Part shown: in pieces, positions 10,332 to 40,073 of the stretch | Numbering within the stretch: position 1 is the stretch's first letter | Layout of the letters: each line of letters begins with the position of its first letter | Source of the DNA: Roseomonas gilardii subsp. gilardii | GTDB taxonomy: Bacteria > Pseudomonadota > Alphaproteobacteria > Acetobacterales > Acetobacteraceae | Length of the DNA: 64,000 bases | Direction of reading: 5' to 3' | Assembly: GCF_023078375.1 (NCBI RefSeq) | Contig: NZ_CP095554.1 | Span: 499,001-563,000 of the forward strand | Translations under genes and position numbers: made by a program | The notes under the pieces: generated by a model | Seen by the model: the letters and a program-made list of their open reading frames with translations, nothing else | Told to the model about the DNA's origin: nothing | Database searches by the model: none

Positions 10332-10406
10332 GCGGGCGTAGCTCAGGGGTAGAGCACAACCTTGCCAAGGTTGGGGTCGAGGGTTCGAATCCCTTCGCCC
10401 GCTCCA
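10332..10406 (+). tRNA. tRNA-Gly (GCC anticodon)
   Basis: A full cloverleaf folds here. The acceptor stem is GCGGGCG with CGCCCGC, the D arm is GCTCAGGGGTAGAGC, the anticodon stem is CAACC/GGTTG around loop TTGCCAA with anticodon GCC at 10364-10366, and the T arm contains GGTTCGAATC. CCA is encoded at 10404-10406. A patch of broken and foreign-looking genes starts right after it, and tRNA genes are common integration sites. Confidence 0.97.
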
Positions 10407-32598: not shown

Positions 32599-33939
32599 TC
32601 AGACCGCCACGCCCAGCCCCAGCAGAGCCGCCAGCACAAGGCCACCCCAGAGCGGCAGCAGGGCCGGGCGGCCGGAAGCATTGGGCAGTTCCCCGGCCAG
32701 CCGTTCCGCCTGTCGCGCCAGGGCGGGCAGGGCCAGAGCCAGGGCCAGGCCGAAGGGGAGCAGCAGCAGGGGATGCTGCCGCGCCAGCGCCATGGCCACG
32801 GCGAGGATGGCGGCGAAGCCCGGAAAGGGCGGCAGCCCGGCCAGCCCCGCCAGGGCGAGGAGCAGCCCCCAGCGCCCGGCGCGAAGACCCGCCGCGTCAC
32901 CCGGTGCCGTGCTTCGTGGCGCCCCACCTTCCAGAGTCAGACTCGCCGCGCAGCGTGACAGCGCCTGCCCTGCCAGCGCCAGGAGGCCCGCCAGCGGCAG
33001 GTCCAGCCCGAAGCAGAGCGCGGCCAGCCCGGTCTGGCCGAGGCCGGTCCAGCCGAGCAGCCGCCCCGGCTCCTGCCGCCGCCACAGGGCCAGGGCCGCC
33101 GCCAGCAGCGACAGCAGCCCCGCCGCCACCAGCAGGCCGCCCAGCGGCAGGCCCCCGGGGGCGGCCCCCGTCACCCGCCCGGCGCGCCACAGCATGGGCA
33201 GCACCATGCCCGGCAGCAGGCCCAGGCACAGTGCGGAAAAGACGGCCGGCCCGCGCGCCGAGGCGGCCATGCCCCAGCCCTGCCAGGGCACCAGTCCCGA
33301 CAATGGCCCATAGCCGGCCAGCAGCAGCACGGCCCCCAGCCGCAGCAGCCCCGCCTCCCCCATGGGGGCGGACAGGATCAGCCCCGGCCAGGACCCCGTC
33401 CCCACCCCGCCCGAGGCACTGCCCAGGAGAAGCAGCACCACCCCCAGCAGCGCGGTGGCGAGCCCGGCGCCGCAGGGCAGCAGCATCCGCCAGGACAGGG
33501 ACCAGGATGGAACCCGCCCCTCCCCCACCCCCGACAGGATCGCCGCCGCGGCCAGGAGGGCGGGCACGAAGCCGATCCAGCCCAGCACGGGGCCATCCGC
33601 CAGGACCGCCAGCTGGTATCCGCCCAGGAAGAGCTGCACGGCCAGCGGCAGGCCCGGCGAGAGAGGGCCACGGCCGGCCAGCGCGCCGGACACCAGCAGG
33701 CCGACAGCCCCGCCCAGGGCCGGCAGGAGGCGGTTCACCGCATCCAGCCGCATCACGCCGTCGCCACCTTCCGGCCGCGCCAACAGGGCAAGGCCGAGCA
33801 GGAAACCCAGCGCCGAGGCCAGCAGCCCGGCCTTCGCCGCCATGCCGGGGCGGGACAGCGACAGGGCCAGCAGCAGCGCCGCCAGGAAGGGCAAGGCCAC
33901 GGGGCTCCAGAGCGGCAGGGTGGCAAGCAGTCCGGTCAT
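32599..33939 (-). CDS. HyfF-like antiporter subunit lacking proton-channel residues
   Basis: 446 residues, almost entirely hydrophobic, about 13-14 membrane segments, of the NuoM/NuoN/HyfF type. Where HyfF has GYGTKxGLAPMHTWLPDAHSEAPSP, this protein reads GYGPLSGLVPWQGWGMAASA (residues 209-228). The membrane lysine, the histidine and the Asp/Glu are absent. The usual transmembrane Glu (as in IELTTL of HyfF) is also missing in GWIGFVPALLAAAAI (about residues 120-134). The frame is otherwise intact, so it seems maintained. It starts at an ATGA overlap with hyfE. It is the last gene of a four-gene operon with no hydrogenase subunit. Confidence 0.75.
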   Translation of the reverse strand: MTGLLATLPLWSPVALPFLAALLLALSLSRPGMAAKAGLLASALGFLLGLALLARPEGGDGVMRLDAVNRLLPALGGAVGLLVSGALAGRGPLSPGLPLAVQLFLGGYQLAVLADGPVLGWIGFVPALLAAAAILSGVGEGRVPSWSLSWRMLLPCGAGLATALLGVVLLLLGSASGGVGTGSWPGLILSAPMGEAGLLRLGAVLLLAGYGPLSGLVPWQGWGMAASARGPAVFSALCLGLLPGMVLPMLWRAGRVTGAAPGGLPLGGLLVAAGLLSLLAAALALWRRQEPGRLLGWTGLGQTGLAALCFGLDLPLAGLLALAGQALSRCAASLTLEGGAPRSTAPGDAAGLRAGRWGLLLALAGLAGLPPFPGFAAILAVAMALARQHPLLLLPFGLALALALPALARQAERLAGELPNASGRPALLPLWGGLVLAALLGLGVAV

Positions 33940-34601
33940 CACGCCCCCTCCGGCCCACGAGGCCGCCATCCCGCCAGGTCGAAGCGGAGGCGGAACAGGA
34001 AGGCCCCCGCCACCATGGCCAGGGCAAGGAGCAGGCTGGCCAGGGTGAGTTCCAGCACTTCCGGCAGCCCCGGCACCGCCAGGGCCGCCAGAACCAGCCC
34101 GTTCTCCAGGCTGAGGACCCCGAGCCCCTGGCTCAGCGGGTCGCCGCGCAGCAGCACCGTCGCCAGCCCCAGCAGCAGCAGCGCCAGCGCGACCGCCAGG
34201 GTGGCGCGCGCCGCCATGCCACCCGGCCCCATGGCGGCGGGCCAAACCACCACCGTGGCGAAGCCCAGCAGCACGGTACCCAGGATCAGCGAGGCGCCGA
34301 TGCCGAGACGCAGCTCCGCCTCTCCCGGCAGGCCGAGGCGGCGCGAAAGCCGTCGCAGCCCCAGCGGCACAGCCAGGGCCCGCCCCAGCAGCGCCACCGC
34401 GGCCACGGCCAGGAGCTCCGCGCTCCACATCCCCCCACGACGGGACAGGCAGCCGGCGAGCAGGGCCAGCAGCAGGGATTGCAGCGCATAGGCCAGGATC
34501 GCCCCACCGCCGCGGCGCAGGCAGAGCAGCGCGAAGCCGCAGAGCAGCATGCCGCCGGCCAGGAGCTGCGGCAGATCGCCGGACACCGGCTCGAACCTCA
34601 T
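33939..34601 (-). CDS. HyfE-like membrane subunit
   Basis: 220 residues with six or seven membrane segments, starting MRFEPVSGDLPQLLAGGMLL. It has the HyfE character: a first half resembling the tail of HyfE and a NuoK-like part, with LSLENGLVLAALAVPGLPEV near residues 165-185. The LENG glutamate corresponds to the conserved membrane Glu of NuoK/HyfE, so this subunit keeps a charged residue. It overlaps the HyfF-like start by 4 bases and begins about 10 bases after the HyfC-like stop. Confidence 0.75.
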   Translation of the reverse strand: MRFEPVSGDLPQLLAGGMLLCGFALLCLRRGGGAILAYALQSLLLALLAGCLSRRGGMWSAELLAVAAVALLGRALAVPLGLRRLSRRLGLPGEAELRLGIGASLILGTVLLGFATVVVWPAAMGPGGMAARATLAVALALLLLGLATVLLRGDPLSQGLGVLSLENGLVLAALAVPGLPEVLELTLASLLLALAMVAGAFLFRLRFDLAGWRPRGPEGA

Positions 34602-34611
34602 GGGTCCTCCC

Positions 34612-35555
34612 TCATGCGACGCGGGCGCCCAGGAAGAGCAGCACCGCCCCGAGCACCGCCAGCAGCAGCGCCGCACCCAGCAGTTCCGGCAGGCGCTGCC
34701 GCCGCATCCCGGCCACCAGCACCCCCGCCAGGGCGAAGACGGCGCCGACGGCCAGCAGCTTGGCGATCCAGGCCAGCAGGCCGAGCGGCCAGGCCAGCCA
34801 GGGCGCCTCCACCATGTCCGGCGCCAGGCCGAAGGGCAGGAAGACCGCCGCCAGCAGGTCCAGCCAGAACAGCAGCCAGAGATCGCGGGCCAGGGACCAC
34901 AGGGCCAGATGCCGCCCGGAGGCCTCGGCCGGCAGCATGGCGCCGGTCTCGGCCCCGCATTCCACCTGCGCCACCGCCAGCAGCGCCCCCAGGCAGAGCA
35001 GCAGCGAGAGCTGCAGCCCCACCCCGCCATCCCGCACCCCGGAGGCGATGGTGGCGAGGCCGGTGCCGCCCGCCAGCATGGACAGGACCAGCACCACCGC
35101 CAGCATCGCCGGCCCGGCCAGCACCGCATCGGCCAGCAGCCGCGAGGCCGCCAGCCCGCCCTGGGCCCGCCCGGCCTCCAGCCCCGCCAGGGCCAGGAAG
35201 GCCCGCCCCAGCCCGACCAGCCCGGCGAGCAGGACCAGATCGGCCAGCGGCGCCAGGAGCATCCCGGTGGTGAAGGCGGGCACCAGCCCGGCCGCCGCCA
35301 GCGCCGTGGCGAAGCTGGCATAGGGGAGTAGGCGCGACAGGGCGGAGGCATCCTCCGGCAGGTTCGGCTGCTTCACCACCAGGCGCCGCAGGTCGCGCCA
35401 TTCCTGCCAGGGCGGCGCCCCCGCCGCCCGGCGAGGCGCAGGCGCAGCCAGCGCGCCCCGCCGGCCAGCAGCGGCGCGGCGAGCAGGATGAGGGCCCCAT
35501 GCAGGAGCTGCGCCAGCAGGGCGAGCAGCAGGCTCATCCAGGCCCCCTCATTCAT
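34612..35555 (-). CDS. HyfC-like (NuoH-type) membrane subunit, frameshifted
   Basis: The membrane anchor of the module, about 315 residues when repaired. The N-terminal frame from 35555 gives MSLLLALLAQLLHGALILLA then RLAGRRG and stops early. The continuation APPWQEWRDLRRLVVKQPN leads into the long frame LPEDASALSRLLPYASFATA. One G restored to the run at 35418-35422 (CCCCC on the plus strand) joins them. HyfC features are seen in VECGAETGAML, EASGRHLALWSLARDLWLLF and WPLGLLAWIAKLLAVG. I consider the break a base-call loss rather than decay, because both halves are well preserved. Confidence 0.8.
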
Positions 35556-37605
35556 GTCCCGCGGGCCAGGCGGCGAGCAGCAGCAGCACCAGGGTCAGCA
35601 GCAGGCCCAGCGCCAGCTCGCCCCGTGCCGAAAGGCGCCGGGGGCGGCGCAGGAAGGGGGCCGTCGCCAGCCAGGGGCCAAGGCCCGCCAGGGTGGCGGG
35701 AATCCGGCGCCAGCGCGCGAGACTGTCCGCGATCCCCGTCTCGCCCGGCGCCGGCGACAGGCCGAGCAGCCGGCGCATCGGCTGCGCGAAGCCGCGCCCG
35801 CCGGGCTGCGTGGCCGGATCGCCGAAGGGCAGATGCGGCGGCGGGGCCATGAAGCCGTCATCCCAGACCGGCCCGGTCACCGGCGCCGGGCCGAGGGCGC
35901 GCAGCGCCAGCGCCGCGATCCCACCCGGCAACAGCAGCAGCGCCGCCACCGCCAGGGGCTGATAGGAGGCCGCGCCATCCCCCGCCTGCACCGACAGCCA
36001 CCCGGCCCGCCCATCCAGATCCGCCCGCACCAGCAGGCGCAGGGCCAGGCCCATCAGCTCCAGCAGCGGTCCCGGCAGCAGGCCGCCCAGCAGCAGCAGC
36101 CCCGCCAGCACCGCCAGGGTGCCGCGCATCGCCCCCGTCGCGTCGCCACCGCCCAGGGTCCGCGGATGCCGTGGCCGGCCCAGGAAGGCGAGGCCCAGGA
36201 AGCGCAGCGCCGCCAGCGCCAGCAGGGCCAGCACTGCCCCCGCCGCCGCCAGCACCGCCAGGGTCGCGAGTTGCGTCCCGATCTCCCCGACCCTCCAGGC
36301 GGCCAGCAGGGCCTGGAGCAGTACCCAGGCCGGGGCGAAGCCCGCGAAGGGCGGCAGGGCGGCGAGCGCCAGCACCGCCAGCGCCGCGCAGCCGGTGGCC
36401 CAGGGCATCACCCGCACCAGCCCGCCGAGCCGTTCCAGCGAGCGGAAGCCGGTCATCCGCCGCACCTCCTCCGCCACCAGGACCAGCACCAGCGTGGCCG
36501 GCAGGCCGAGCCCGGCCTGCAGCAGCGCCCCGCCCGAGGCCAGCGCCGCCAGCGCGCTCAGATCGGCGGCCCGGAAGACCGCGGCCAGGCCCAGGCCGAG
36601 CACGGCCAGCCCCGCCTGCCCGCCCGCCAGCCAGCCCGGCAGGAGGCGGAGGTCGTCCTCCAGGCTGGCCCGCAGGCCGCACCAGAAGGCCATCGCCGCC
36701 CCGGCCAGCAGCGGCGGCAGGCCCCACCAGCCCGGCTGGGCCGGCCCGGTCAGGTCCAGCAGCAGCCGGGCCAGGAGATAGAGCCCGGTGGCCACCATCA
36801 GCGCCGGCATGGCCGCACAGGCCCGCCCCGGCCGGGCCGTGGCCAGCAGCGGCATCCAGCCCAGGGCGGAGGCCGCGCCCAGCAGCGGCGCGGCCCCGGC
36901 CAGGGCCAGCACGAGCAGCAGCCCGGCCCGCCAGCCCTCGGGCGGCGTCTGGCGCAGGACGTCGAAGGACCAGCCGTCCGGTGCTGGCGATGTCGCGGGC
37001 AGCAGCAGCGCGAAGGCGAGCAGCAGCGCCACCCAGCCGGCCAGGGCCAGGGCCAGGACCCGCCGGGCCGCGCCCCGCCCCCCGGGATGGGCCAGATCCG
37101 CGCTGGAGAAGACCAGGACCGGCAAAGCCAGCCCCAGGGCCAGAAGCAGCCCCGCCGAATCCGCCGCCGAAAGCGCGAGGGCCAGGGCCGCCGGGCCGAC
37201 CGGGGAAAGGGCACGCCGCAGCGCATCCGGCTCCTCCGGGTCCGGGCCGGAGGCGGCGGCCAGCAACCCCAGCAGCATCAGAAACCACCCCGACAGCCCG
37301 TCGGGCCGCAGCAGGACCACGCCGCCCGGCAGCACCGGCAGCGCCAGGGCCGGAGAAGGCTCTCCCCGGAGAGCCATCGCCCCGGCCGCCATGAGCAGGA
37401 GCCCGGCCAGCAGGCCCAGGAACGGCGCCATCCGGGCCAGCAGGGTGACGGGCGAGGCCGGGGGAGCCAGAGTGCGGGAGGCACGGCCGGGCGGAAACGG
37501 CGGCAACGGACCCGGCGCGGAGCCGGCCGCCGTGGCACGCGGCAGCGCCCCGGCCAGGACGGCGAGCCCGGACAGGGCCAGGAAGGCGAGTAGCAGGATG
37601 GTCAC
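35548..37605 (-). CDS. HyfB-like antiporter subunit lacking proton-channel residues
   Basis: 685 residues, about 16 membrane segments. Family marks are LLRPDGLSGWFLMLLGLLAA (compare VDGLSAFFL) and the C-terminal TGPVWDDGFMAPPPH, matching the WDCGF region of HyfB, then GGRGFAQPMRRLLG. The helix that normally holds Lys-His (GAKAGIVPLHVWLPRAHPEAP in HyfB) reads AGAAPLLGAASALGWMPLLA at about residues 236-255. The TM5 Glu is absent from GLLLALGLALPVLVFSSADL (about residues 152-171). First gene of the module. The HyfC-like start codon lies only 3-5 bases before its stop codon, so translation is coupled. Confidence 0.78.
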   Translation of the reverse strand: MTILLLAFLALSGLAVLAGALPRATAAGSAPGPLPPFPPGRASRTLAPPASPVTLLARMAPFLGLLAGLLLMAAGAMALRGEPSPALALPVLPGGVVLLRPDGLSGWFLMLLGLLAAASGPDPEEPDALRRALSPVGPAALALALSAADSAGLLLALGLALPVLVFSSADLAHPGGRGAARRVLALALAGWVALLLAFALLLPATSPAPDGWSFDVLRQTPPEGWRAGLLLVLALAGAAPLLGAASALGWMPLLATARPGRACAAMPALMVATGLYLLARLLLDLTGPAQPGWWGLPPLLAGAAMAFWCGLRASLEDDLRLLPGWLAGGQAGLAVLGLGLAAVFRAADLSALAALASGGALLQAGLGLPATLVLVLVAEEVRRMTGFRSLERLGGLVRVMPWATGCAALAVLALAALPPFAGFAPAWVLLQALLAAWRVGEIGTQLATLAVLAAAGAVLALLALAALRFLGLAFLGRPRHPRTLGGGDATGAMRGTLAVLAGLLLLGGLLPGPLLELMGLALRLLVRADLDGRAGWLSVQAGDGAASYQPLAVAALLLLPGGIAALALRALGPAPVTGPVWDDGFMAPPPHLPFGDPATQPGGRGFAQPMRRLLGLSPAPGETGIADSLARWRRIPATLAGLGPWLATAPFLRRPRRLSARGELALGLLLTLVLLLLAAWPAGHE

Positions 37606-38078: not shown

Positions 38079-38908
38079 TCACAGCATCTCCAGCGCCTGC
38101 TTGCGTTGCGGCGGCGGGAAGACCCGGTCCAGCGCCCGCAGATCCGCCTCGTCCAGCGTGATCTCGGCGGCCCCCGCATTGTGCCGCAGATGCGCCGGGT
38201 CGGCGGATTTCGGGATGGCCACCACGCCGGGCTGGCGCAGCACCCAGGCGAGCGCGATCTGCGCCGGCAGCCGCCCGTGGCGCTCGGCCACCTGTTGCAG
38301 CACCGGATGGCGCAGCAGCCGCCCACCCTGGCCCAATGGGGAATAGGCCATCACCGGCATGCGCCGCTCGCCGCAGAAGGGGAGCAGGTCGAATTCCACG
38401 CCCCGGGCGTCCAGGTTGTAGAGGACCTGGTCCGTGGCGCAGTCCGCCAGCGCGCCGCCCAGTTCCCGCAGATCGGCCACGTCGAGGTTGCTGACGCCCC
38501 AGCGGCGGATCTTCCCGGCTTCGCGCAGCCGCTCGAAGGCCTCCACCGTCTCGGCCAGGGGCACGCTGCCGCGCCAGTGCAGCAGATAGAGGTCGATGCT
38601 TTCCACCCCCAGGCGCCGCAGGCTCGCCTCGCAGGCCGCCGCCATGCGGGTGCGGGAGGCGTTGTGGGGATAGACCTTGCTGACCAGGAAGACCTCGTCG
38701 CGGCGCCCGCGATGGCCTCCCCCACGACCTGCTCCGCGCCGCCTTCCGCATACATTTCCGCCGTGTCGATCAGCGTCATGCCGAGATCGAGGCCGAGGCG
38801 CAGCGCCCGGGCCTCGGCCCCGCGATCCGCCCCACGTTCCCCCAGATGCCAGGTGCCCTGGCCGAGCACCGGGATCTCCGTCTCGTCCGCGAGCCGCAGC
38901 TGCCGCAT
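38079..38908 (-). CDS. aldo/keto reductase, frameshifted
   Basis: About 276 residues when repaired. The N-terminal part MRQLRLADETEIPVLGQGTW and TLIDTAEMYAEGGAEQVVGEA carries the catalytic Asp and Tyr. The catalytic Lys and His are in the second frame: RRDEVFLVSKVYPHNASR, then SIDLYLLHWRG. NADPH-binding text VVAIPKSADPAHLRHNAGA follows. The frame change needs one extra G at 38706-38708 (CCC on the plus strand). The start at 38908 has AAGGAGAAG upstream. It acts on an unknown carbonyl substrate. Both halves are well conserved, so I think the break is a base-call loss. Confidence 0.85.
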
Positions 38909-39260: not shown

Positions 39261-40073
39261 CTAGAGGCTGTTGTGGACCTGGGCGATTGAGGTGAGGTGC
39301 TTGAGCATGAGGCAAGCGAAGGCGACGAGGTGGAGGCCTGCGAGTGTTTCGGGGAGGCGTTCATAGTCGCGGACGAGGCGTCGGAAGCGGGTAGCCCAGG
39401 CGAAGGAGCGCTCAATGACCCAGCGCCTGGGCAGGAGGACGAAGCCGCGCTTGGCCTCGTGGTGGCGGACGACCTCAAGCTGGATGCCGTGCCTGGCGGC
39501 AGCCTCGGAGGGCTTCGGACCGGTATAGCCCTGGTCCACGAAGGCGATCTCGACGCTCTCGCCGGTGGCATTCTGGACGGCGTCGGCCAGGCGCCCGACC
39601 TCGGCACGGTCGTCGGCGGTGGCGGGCGTGACGTGCAGCGCCAGCAGGTGGCCGAGCGTGTCGACGGCCGCATGCACCTTCGAGCCCCGCTTGCGCTTGG
39701 CCCCGTCGTAGCCCGCCCTGGCTCCACTCTCGGGGGTGGAACGGAGCGTCCGGCTGTCCAGCACCGCCGCCGTCGGCTCGGCCGCGCGGCCTGCCTCCAG
39801 CCGCAGCACGACCCGCAGGTCGTGCACGATCGCCTCGAACACCCCGGCCGCCAGCCAGCGCCGGGCCTGGGCGTAGACGATGTCCCATGGTGGCAGGTCA
39901 TTGGGCATCCAGCGCCAGGGCGCGCCCGTCCTGACCACATAGCGCAGCCCGTTGAACACCTCGCGCAAGGCGTGGCGCCGCTGCCCCGCCGCCTCGGGCA
40001 GCAGCACAAGATAGGGCGCAACCAGCGCCCATTCCTCATCAGATACGTCGGACGGATAGGACTTGCGGGTCAT
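39261..40073 (-). CDS. IS5-family DDE transposase
   Basis: 270 residues. The N-terminal domain begins YPSDVSDEEWALVAPYL and GLRYVVRTGAPWRWMPNDLP, typical for the IS427 group. The RNase-H core has AVLDSRTLRS (first Asp), IAFVDQGYTGPKPSEAA (second Asp) and the Y-x2-R-x-E-like region RWVIERSFAWATRFRRLVRDYERLPET (Glu). The frame has no break. The stop TAG at 39263-39261 lies in the flanking CTAG repeat rather than inside the element, so termination is supplied by the target. Confidence 0.95.
   Translation of the reverse strand: MTRKSYPSDVSDEEWALVAPYLVLLPEAAGQRRHALREVFNGLRYVVRTGAPWRWMPNDLPPWDIVYAQARRWLAAGVFEAIVHDLRVVLRLEAGRAAEPTAAVLDSRTLRSTPESGARAGYDGAKRKRGSKVHAAVDTLGHLLALHVTPATADDRAEVGRLADAVQNATGESVEIAFVDQGYTGPKPSEAAARHGIQLEVVRHHEAKRGFVLLPRRWVIERSFAWATRFRRLVRDYERLPETLAGLHLVAFACLMLKHLTSIAQVHNSL

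Follow-up and report, generated by a model that had tools for sequence, protein, structure and literature searches.

The 64-kb window analysed here (the whole stretch of DNA under study) comprises bases 499001-563000 of contig C1 of Roseomonas gilardii subsp. gilardii, whose 4.62-Mb genome (coded G000) lies on two contigs. Between positions 32599 and 37605 it carries four minus-strand genes in the order hyfB, hyfC, hyfE, and hyfF, encoding HyfB-, HyfC-, HyfE-, and HyfF-like proteins (Table 1), the putative membrane arm of HyqBCEFGI, a Hyq-type oxidoreductase that resembles complex I, has six subunits, and is nickel-free. An initial annotation made from the sequence of the window had recognized the gene block, and this is borne out by family matches in Pfam and NCBIfam together with the coordinates, with the NCBIfam matches of HyfB, HyfE, and HyfF each falling under its curated cut-off. 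The best solved relatives of the window HyfB are HycC of formate hydrogenlyase (FHL; 7z0s_C) and Mrp A, and no PDB match to the window HyfF was found at E 0.01. Hydropathy counts indicate that the helices remain hydrophobic and nothing further.

Table 1. Features of the window (window positions; TM, transmembrane helix).
Feature	Position	Strand	Family match or residues
hyfB/hyqB-like gene, NuoL/MrpA-like subunit, 685 amino acids	35548..37605	-	NCBIfam PRK06521 (hydrogenase 4 subunit B), E 1.9e-56
HyfB residues 236-251, AGAAPLLGAASALGWM	36853..36900	-	TM7 Lys motif in relatives, GAGxKAGLVPLHxWLP
HyfB residues 365-377, TM12 region	36475..36513	-	PAT in the window; Lys (H..FK) in canonical relatives
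hyfC/hyqC-like gene, NuoH-like	34612..35379	-	Pfam NADHdh, E 1.5e-8
hyfE/hyqE-like gene	33939..34601	-	NCBIfam PRK11492, E 1.5e-15
hyfF/hyqF-like gene, NuoM/N-like, 446 amino acids	32599..33939	-	NCBIfam PRK06458, E 2.6e-28
HyfF residues 209-224, GYGPLSGLVPWQGWGM	33268..33315	-	TM7 Lys motif in relatives, GYGTKAGLxP
Aldo-keto reductase gene, frameshifted	38079..38908	-	
Insertion sequence transposase, IS4/5 family	39261..40073	-	DUF4096, DDE_Tnp_1
tRNA-Gly (GCC)	10332..10406	+	Rfam/ARAGORN

A predicted nickel-free complex with distantly encoded soluble subunits

The four genes had been described as an orphan module without hydrogenase genes. Within the 64-kb window the absence of such genes stands, with no match to a large or small subunit and none to a Fer4_7 ferredoxin. 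For the genome as a whole it does not, and the module is not an orphan. A Pfam search of the genome recovered, beyond the nuo copies, one additional protein each of Complex1_49kDa and Oxidored_q6, encoded by mutually adjacent genes (C1:466353-468243), that is, a large (NuoCD/HyfG-like) and a small (NuoB/HyfI-like) subunit encoded on the same contig approximately 63 kb from the block. All six structural subunits (B, C, E, F, G, and I) are thus present in the genome, and the one-operon arrangement typical of Hyq/Ehr is not, since BCEF and GI are split. A catalase gene and a LysR-type regulator lie beside the relocated pair (L031:5723-8298, approximately 463.7-466.3 kb of contig C1).

The distribution of these genes among relatives supports the suggestion of the initial annotation that the membrane module is the partner of an unlinked soluble enzyme. 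In a set of 60 relatives, HyfB (E<1e-30) and the large subunit (E<1e-80) were present in the identical 18 genomes; weaker HyfB matches (E<=0.001) were found in six further genomes, and weaker large-subunit matches came from every genome that has a nuo operon. The fetched loci of 11 of these 18 genomes hold all six genes together, one (G019) holds B, C, and the large and small subunits together with a weak F, and one (G032) ends at the end of its contig. The catalytic genes do therefore lie beside the block in relatives, and in the window strain they have been moved, not lost. The soluble pair is likewise encoded elsewhere than BCEF in two congeners of the window strain, G003 and G004 (HyfB 89-90% identical to that of the window), which together with it are here called the trio, and in G024. 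In a third congener, G013, which is canonical in its residues (see below), a small-subunit gene (L087, C1:2997278-2997829) lies 2.6 Mb from the operon, and the match contains one TAG. Across the whole bacterial family, a search at E<=1e-20 detected HyfB in 176 of 299 genomes.

The complex is assigned, from its sequences, to the Hyq family (“endo-hydrogenase”), an energy-converting hydrogenase-related (Ehr) type of complex without nickel ligands, because its large subunit has no CxxC nickel pairs, because HypD is absent, and because its gene set is that of hyqBCEFGI. At the places where Escherichia coli HyfG reads CGIC and DPCYSC, the window large subunit reads RLSAVD and FGLTCSG, and the CxxC nickel motif was found in none of 18 aligned large subunits. 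A search of the entire genome for HypD, a maturation factor of [NiFe]-hydrogenases and the only one looked for, gave no match; the same search was positive in four of 14 control genomes, including that of E. coli. These results agree with the initial annotation as regards the lack of a ferredoxin in the window and of this maturation factor, and with the four nickel-coordinating cysteines gone and HypD unmatched, a group 4 [NiFe]-hydrogenase was ruled out. A new class of complex-I-like assembly, which had also been proposed, is not supported; the complex is a variant of a known family.

The closest described system is the Hyq complex of Azorhizobium caulinodans (hyqRBCEFGI; PMC2650096, PMC3357923), which has the same six subunit types and no NADH module (PMC3357923), a large subunit without either CxxC nickel motif, and a small subunit with four iron-sulfur (FeS) cysteines. 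Unlike in A. caulinodans, BCEF and GI are approximately 63 kb apart in the window genome, and the proton-path residues of B and F as well as several residues of G and C are gone. The name Ehr was given to the nickel-ligand-free relatives of energy-converting hydrogenases (PMC6349859, citing Marreiros 2013); these share the common group-4 hydrogenase architecture, lack Ni,Fe-coordinating residues, and are suspected of charge translocation, the residues for which the window variant does not have. E. coli hydrogenase-4 (hyf) and FHL (hyc) are homologous in HyfB/E/F but have [NiFe] sites and ferredoxin-like subunits, unlike the window complex. In FHL HycC, the Lys of the Glu/Lys pair is naturally a Leu (PMC9474812), so that one residue of the pair is gone, compared with nearly all path residues of both antiporter-like subunits in the window complex. 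Respiratory complex I (Nuo/Nqo) is homologous by subunit, and the window genome has separate nuo genes, six of which were compared with those of congeners. Canonical Hyq proteins keep the equivalents of Nqo4 His34 and Asp139; window A36 and A85 align with the Nqo4 quinone-site residues His38 and Tyr87, positions that are not conserved in the Hyq family, so even canonical Hyq members differ from complex I.

Hyq relatives occur in Bradyrhizobium, Azospirillum, Mesorhizobium, and Acetobacteraceae. In A. caulinodans, hyq is nif-regulated (PMC2650096), and H2 uptake or evolution activity has been reported for the complex (PMC3357923). Among the window genome and 37 others, none of the 38 has a nifH match above the curated cut-off, and a nitrogenase-linked role like that of the A. 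caulinodans complex can therefore not be assumed here; a link to nitrogen fixation in the tested genomes was rejected. The stronger sub-threshold nifH matches (E of approximately 1e-55 to 1e-64) are presumably BchL/BchX-like.

Loss of proton-path residues and its distribution

Antiporter subunits of complex I carry a Lys-His-Lys/Glu axis and a Glu-Lys ion pair (PMC11496545). Five columns of this path (TM5 Glu, TM7 Lys, TM8 Lys, TM12 Lys, and a later Glu) were checked against E. coli NuoL/M/N, HyfB, and HyfF. The window HyfB reads G, L, A, T, and A, such that all five residues are replaced; the window HyfF reads V, L, G, R, and I, such that the four informative residues are replaced, the third column (TM8 Lys) counting little since E. 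coli HyfF and most relatives have Asn there. That the Lys and the TM5 Glu are lost in both antiporter-like subunits, as initially noted, is thus confirmed by column alignment, and no Lys or Glu in a shifted position was found in the profile alignments, which are of sequence profiles only. The two other members of the trio have lost the same residues. In this comparison, 14 of 15 other HyfB rows (the exception being G019) and 13 of 13 other HyfF rows, G013 included, keep them. A misreading of the columns is unlikely because the NuoL/NuoM-like rows and the MrpD homolog of the window genome itself retain the TM5 Glu, the TM7 Lys, and the final Lys/Glu. With these residues intact and the losses shared by both congeners, sequencing error behind the missing residues was ruled out. 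Splitting of the operon was also ruled out as their cause, since other altered lineages have contiguous operons and G024 is split yet canonical.

To gauge how widespread the loss is, 100 additional loci were fetched, ranked by similarity to an altered HyfB, and their columns were scored with profile alignments whose training set was the initial loci, trio and G019 included. Of 123 loci with a HyfB-profile match, four were set aside as outside the family (the nuo controls L096-L098, and L050), and five of the remaining 119 (L199, L212, L215, L227, and L228) are truncated at the checked columns and were left unscored. HyfB is intact (EKKKE) in 92 of the 114 scorable loci and altered, meaning that at least three of the five path residues are lost, in 19, a proportion that is no unbiased frequency because the additional loci were ranked by likeness to an altered HyfB. 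The altered loci (the window, L032, L033, L044, L049, L144, L168, L188, L190, L194, L196, L197, L198, L203, L204, L210, L213, L219, and L226) belong to 12 genera of one family; L049 (genome G015) is by score a doubtful member. Three loci deviate at one or two HyfB positions: L163 (G142), L175 (G113), and L208 (G068). In L175 the large-subunit His is kept and the Asp139 equivalent and some HyfB/F residues are lost, and it may be an intermediate. A total of 88 further loci (80 from named genomes, obtained with search patterns that favour conserved stretches, and eight others) included 64 that are wholly canonical in B, F, and the large and small subunits, among them loci from Bradyrhizobium, Azospirillum, Mesorhizobium, and Methylocystis. 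One more altered copy was found among these 88 (L235 of G322; HyfB ALPVS, large-subunit columns S, C, T, and A); in one row that is otherwise canonical, the Cys columns read CADD, and most of the remaining loci are incomplete. Of 20 genomes searched, eight hold a canonical HyfB in addition to an altered one (G084, G120, G163, G183, G187, G212, G317, and G322); in the window genome, G003, G004, and nine others a second, canonical HyfB was not found at E<=1e-25.

The losses extend beyond the columns from which they were first recognized. A total of 16 altered rows were compared with 86 canonical rows (three of the latter scored at two HyfB columns only) at columns at least 95% conserved among canonical rows. 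In HyfB, K240, K288, H335, K339, and E394 are retained in none of the 16 altered rows, and H223 in 1/16, K209 in 1/15, E297 in 2/16, and E129 in 3/16; R186, R436, and R447 are retained in all 16, D69 in 15/16, and Gly/Pro columns to 87%. In HyfF, K211 (0/14), E142 (0/12), K330 (0/14), and E385 (2/11) are similarly depleted. Path columns are retained to 5% in HyfB and 14% in HyfF, versus 71% and 60% for other conserved columns, and random draws of conserved columns gave values as low in 0 of 100000 (HyfB) and 42 of 100000 (HyfF) cases. The NuoH-like HyfC has lost K225 (0/13 retained), R113 (1/15), E150 (2/12), and in part E79 (5/15), with K208 (14/15) and E155 (12/15) mostly kept.

The soluble subunits show both loss and retention. 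Large-subunit H281 is retained in 0/16 altered rows versus 85/86 canonical rows and D386 in 0/15 versus 84/85, together with K616 in 0/14 and D463 in 1/16, charged columns of this subunit being retained to 85% overall; some of the changes are conservative, with Glu taking the place of D463 in five rows and of D386 in three, and Arg that of K616 in four. By HMMER alignment, columns 281 and 386 correspond to Thermus Nqo4 His34 and Asp139 (window R32 and A137). Nqo4 His34, His38, Tyr87, and Asp139 are listed as key residues in PMC5552823, with the His38/Asp139 pair as proton donor. In the small subunit, the FeS cysteines are retained at 60 of 60 positions over 15 altered rows, the window row included; the locus of the sixteenth (G015) has no small subunit. 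Column 81 of the same subunit, Ala in 81 of 81 canonical rows, is never Ala in the 15 altered rows, where it is Asp (8), Thr (4), Glu (2), or Gly (1), a pattern that suggests remodelling and not mere erosion.

Recurrence and selection

A quick tree of the large and small subunits was built from 106 rows, those of 120 candidate loci in which the large subunit was usable; two of the rows were unscorable. The altered rows in it need seven changes, five of them forced by starred branches, and a single clade of altered rows was rejected (approximately unbiased test, p 0.0006). A more careful tree of 56 rows, from which the trait columns and the longest rows were left out, needs four changes (bootstrap 5-95% range 3-5), with a single change in 0% of 200 trees, and places both canonical and altered members in each of the genera g96 and g16; overall, g1, g16, and g96 are genera with members of both kinds. 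On these trees, the residue loss was reached several times within one family.

Between the window and G003/G004, the ratio of nonsynonymous to synonymous substitution (dN/dS, or omega; method of Nei and Gojobori, NG86) amounts to 0.11-0.12 for the large subunit; for the small subunit and for B, C, E, and F it lies at 0.19-0.36. Codon bootstraps of the G000-G003 comparison set upper bounds of 0.40 for B, 0.42 for C, 0.30 for E, and 0.48 for F. The nuo genes of the window genome yield 0.00-0.15. NG86 values of 0.08-0.60 were obtained for four altered pairs (G003-G004 and one each in genera g107, g71, and g96), compared with 0.01-0.33 for ten canonical pairs. Values near 1, which the initial annotation had named as grounds for refutation, are not seen, and the estimates indicate that selection on the altered genes is purifying, the constraint being weaker yet present.

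Possible loss of coupling, decay, and other readings

The residue loss is real, and the locus is neither an ordinary Hyq operon nor a new class. As judged from its proteins, it encodes a Hyq/Ehr complex that has shed the greater part of the proposed proton-coupling chain, a state attained several times. On balance, the evidence tips towards a proton-decoupled Hyq complex with its soluble subunits encoded approximately 63 kb from the membrane arm. Many ionisable residues are replaced, from the catalytic cavity of the large subunit via the NuoH-like subunit to both antiporter-like subunits, and the small subunit retains all four cysteine ligands of an N2-type 4Fe4S cluster. Electrons would most likely still pass from a donor to an acceptor in the membrane or the cavity, without proton pumping and at a remodelled active site, and decoupling would have happened in the lineage of the window strain and, within its bacterial family, several more times. 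We infer, from these sequences, that the six proteins assemble, that electrons flow, and that pumping is absent. A changed job for the complex, one of the options of the initial annotation, is plausible and is strengthened by the recurrence and the coordination of the losses. More tentatively, Hyq enzymes of this one family may several times, independently, have become non-pumping redox complexes, in which the coupling chain from the Nqo4-Asp139 site to both antiporter subunits was erased jointly, the FeS ligands were kept, and the active site was convergently remodelled (the small-subunit change from Ala to Asp/Glu).

Several observations weigh against these interpretations, among them the frameshifts of the window strain, described below, and the faster evolution of the altered genes, by which part of the pattern reflects relaxed constraint. 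First, five of the nine HyfB path columns define the altered class, and only the remaining columns are therefore independent evidence; the HyfF, HyfC, and soluble-subunit columns do not enter the definition, and the HyfB path columns outside it (223, 288, 297, and 335) are retained in 1, 0, 2, and 0 of 16 rows. Second, erasure is not total in HyfF, where the TM5 Glu (E122) is retained in 5/14 altered rows, and it is less specific there, other charged or His columns being retained to only 52%. HyfE was detected in 11/16 altered versus 86/86 canonical rows, and an unlinked small-subunit-like gene of G015 reads SCCC, with one FeS ligand lost. Third, because of long branches, the placement of the trio is unsure: it joins other altered rows in the quick tree and genus g71 in the careful tree. 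A sign test on four independent pairs gives a median p of 0.125 for columns 281 and 386, and with only four such pairs it cannot reach significance. Fourth, in FHL HycC the substitutions E391A and D354A cut H2 production by 45%, and six other alanine mutants were not significantly affected (PMC9474812). The loss of path residues thus need not abolish catalysis and by itself proves nothing about pumping.

Slow decay is an unlikely explanation that nonetheless deserves to be taken seriously. Here, an operon that was split or dispensable would have lost its function, and the membrane genes would be hydrophobic relics, heading for pseudogene status and retained by chance in a few species. Consistent with this, the split is found throughout the trio, the altered genes have long branches and a higher omega than the canonical ones, and five of the 16 altered rows yielded no HyfE. 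Moreover, compared with G003/G004, the window strain has shifted reading frames in two places, at the N-terminal helix of hyfC (35380-35547) and at the large-subunit hinge. The hyfC shift also limits the gene overlap described in the initial annotation to hyfE and hyfF as read here. These frameshifts may be assembly errors in G+C runs or the start of decay. The aldo-keto reductase gene just upstream of hyfB, continuous in G003/G004, is frameshifted too, so local assembly indels are possible. More generally, 29 of 31 G003 genes that are intact in G004 are also intact in the window genome, as are 26 of 29 G004 genes that are intact in G003. Against decay, omega is below 1 in four altered lineages, though up to 0.60, the FeS cysteines and most HyfB Gly/Pro columns are retained, most other altered loci with enough flank have a contiguous operon, and the losses hit path columns far more than other conserved columns.

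It is improbable that the complex still moves ions by another route, for instance via residues that bear a charge in the altered proteins alone, or moves a different ion. At 12 HyfB and 10 HyfF columns, the trio is charged where no canonical row is, and HyfB D69, D120, R186, R436, and R447 are retained; however, few gained charged columns are common to the altered lineages (one in HyfB, five in HyfF, and none in HyfC or HyfE), the fraction of charged residues and His is lower in all four membrane subunits, and the Lys-His-Lys/Glu axis is largely absent. An equally low probability attaches to a structural or regulatory anchor, in which HyfBCEF would merely tether a soluble pair with another substrate or no redox role, as the loss of the canonical large-subunit His, Asp, and Lys columns, the acidic residue at small-subunit column 81 in 10 of 15 altered rows, and the missing nickel motif might suggest, but a mere tether would not need the four FeS ligands that all 15 scored rows retain.

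If the complex is decoupled as proposed, the altered proteins would be natural knock-outs revealing residues that serve coupling only. How electron transfer is coupled to proton pumping in complex I is still debated (PMC11496545). The repeated joint removal of proposed coupling residues could separate the needs of coupling from those of fold or redox chemistry without mutagenesis, and canonical and altered forms can be compared directly within one genus (g1, g16, or g96) and even within one genome. No published account of such residue loss was found in a search that did not cover subscription literature.

Around the block, a transposase gene lies approximately 1.7 kb upstream of hyfB, and the tRNA-Gly gene of Table 1 was the single Rfam/ARAGORN match over the window. 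Among 95 operon loci scanned, genes for the tripartite ATP-independent periplasmic (TRAP) transporter proteins DctM and DctQ were found in 23 and 15, respectively, and provide no functional lead; they are mostly upstream, as in the examples located upstream of hyqB at L244:1000-2271 and L036:7686-8279.

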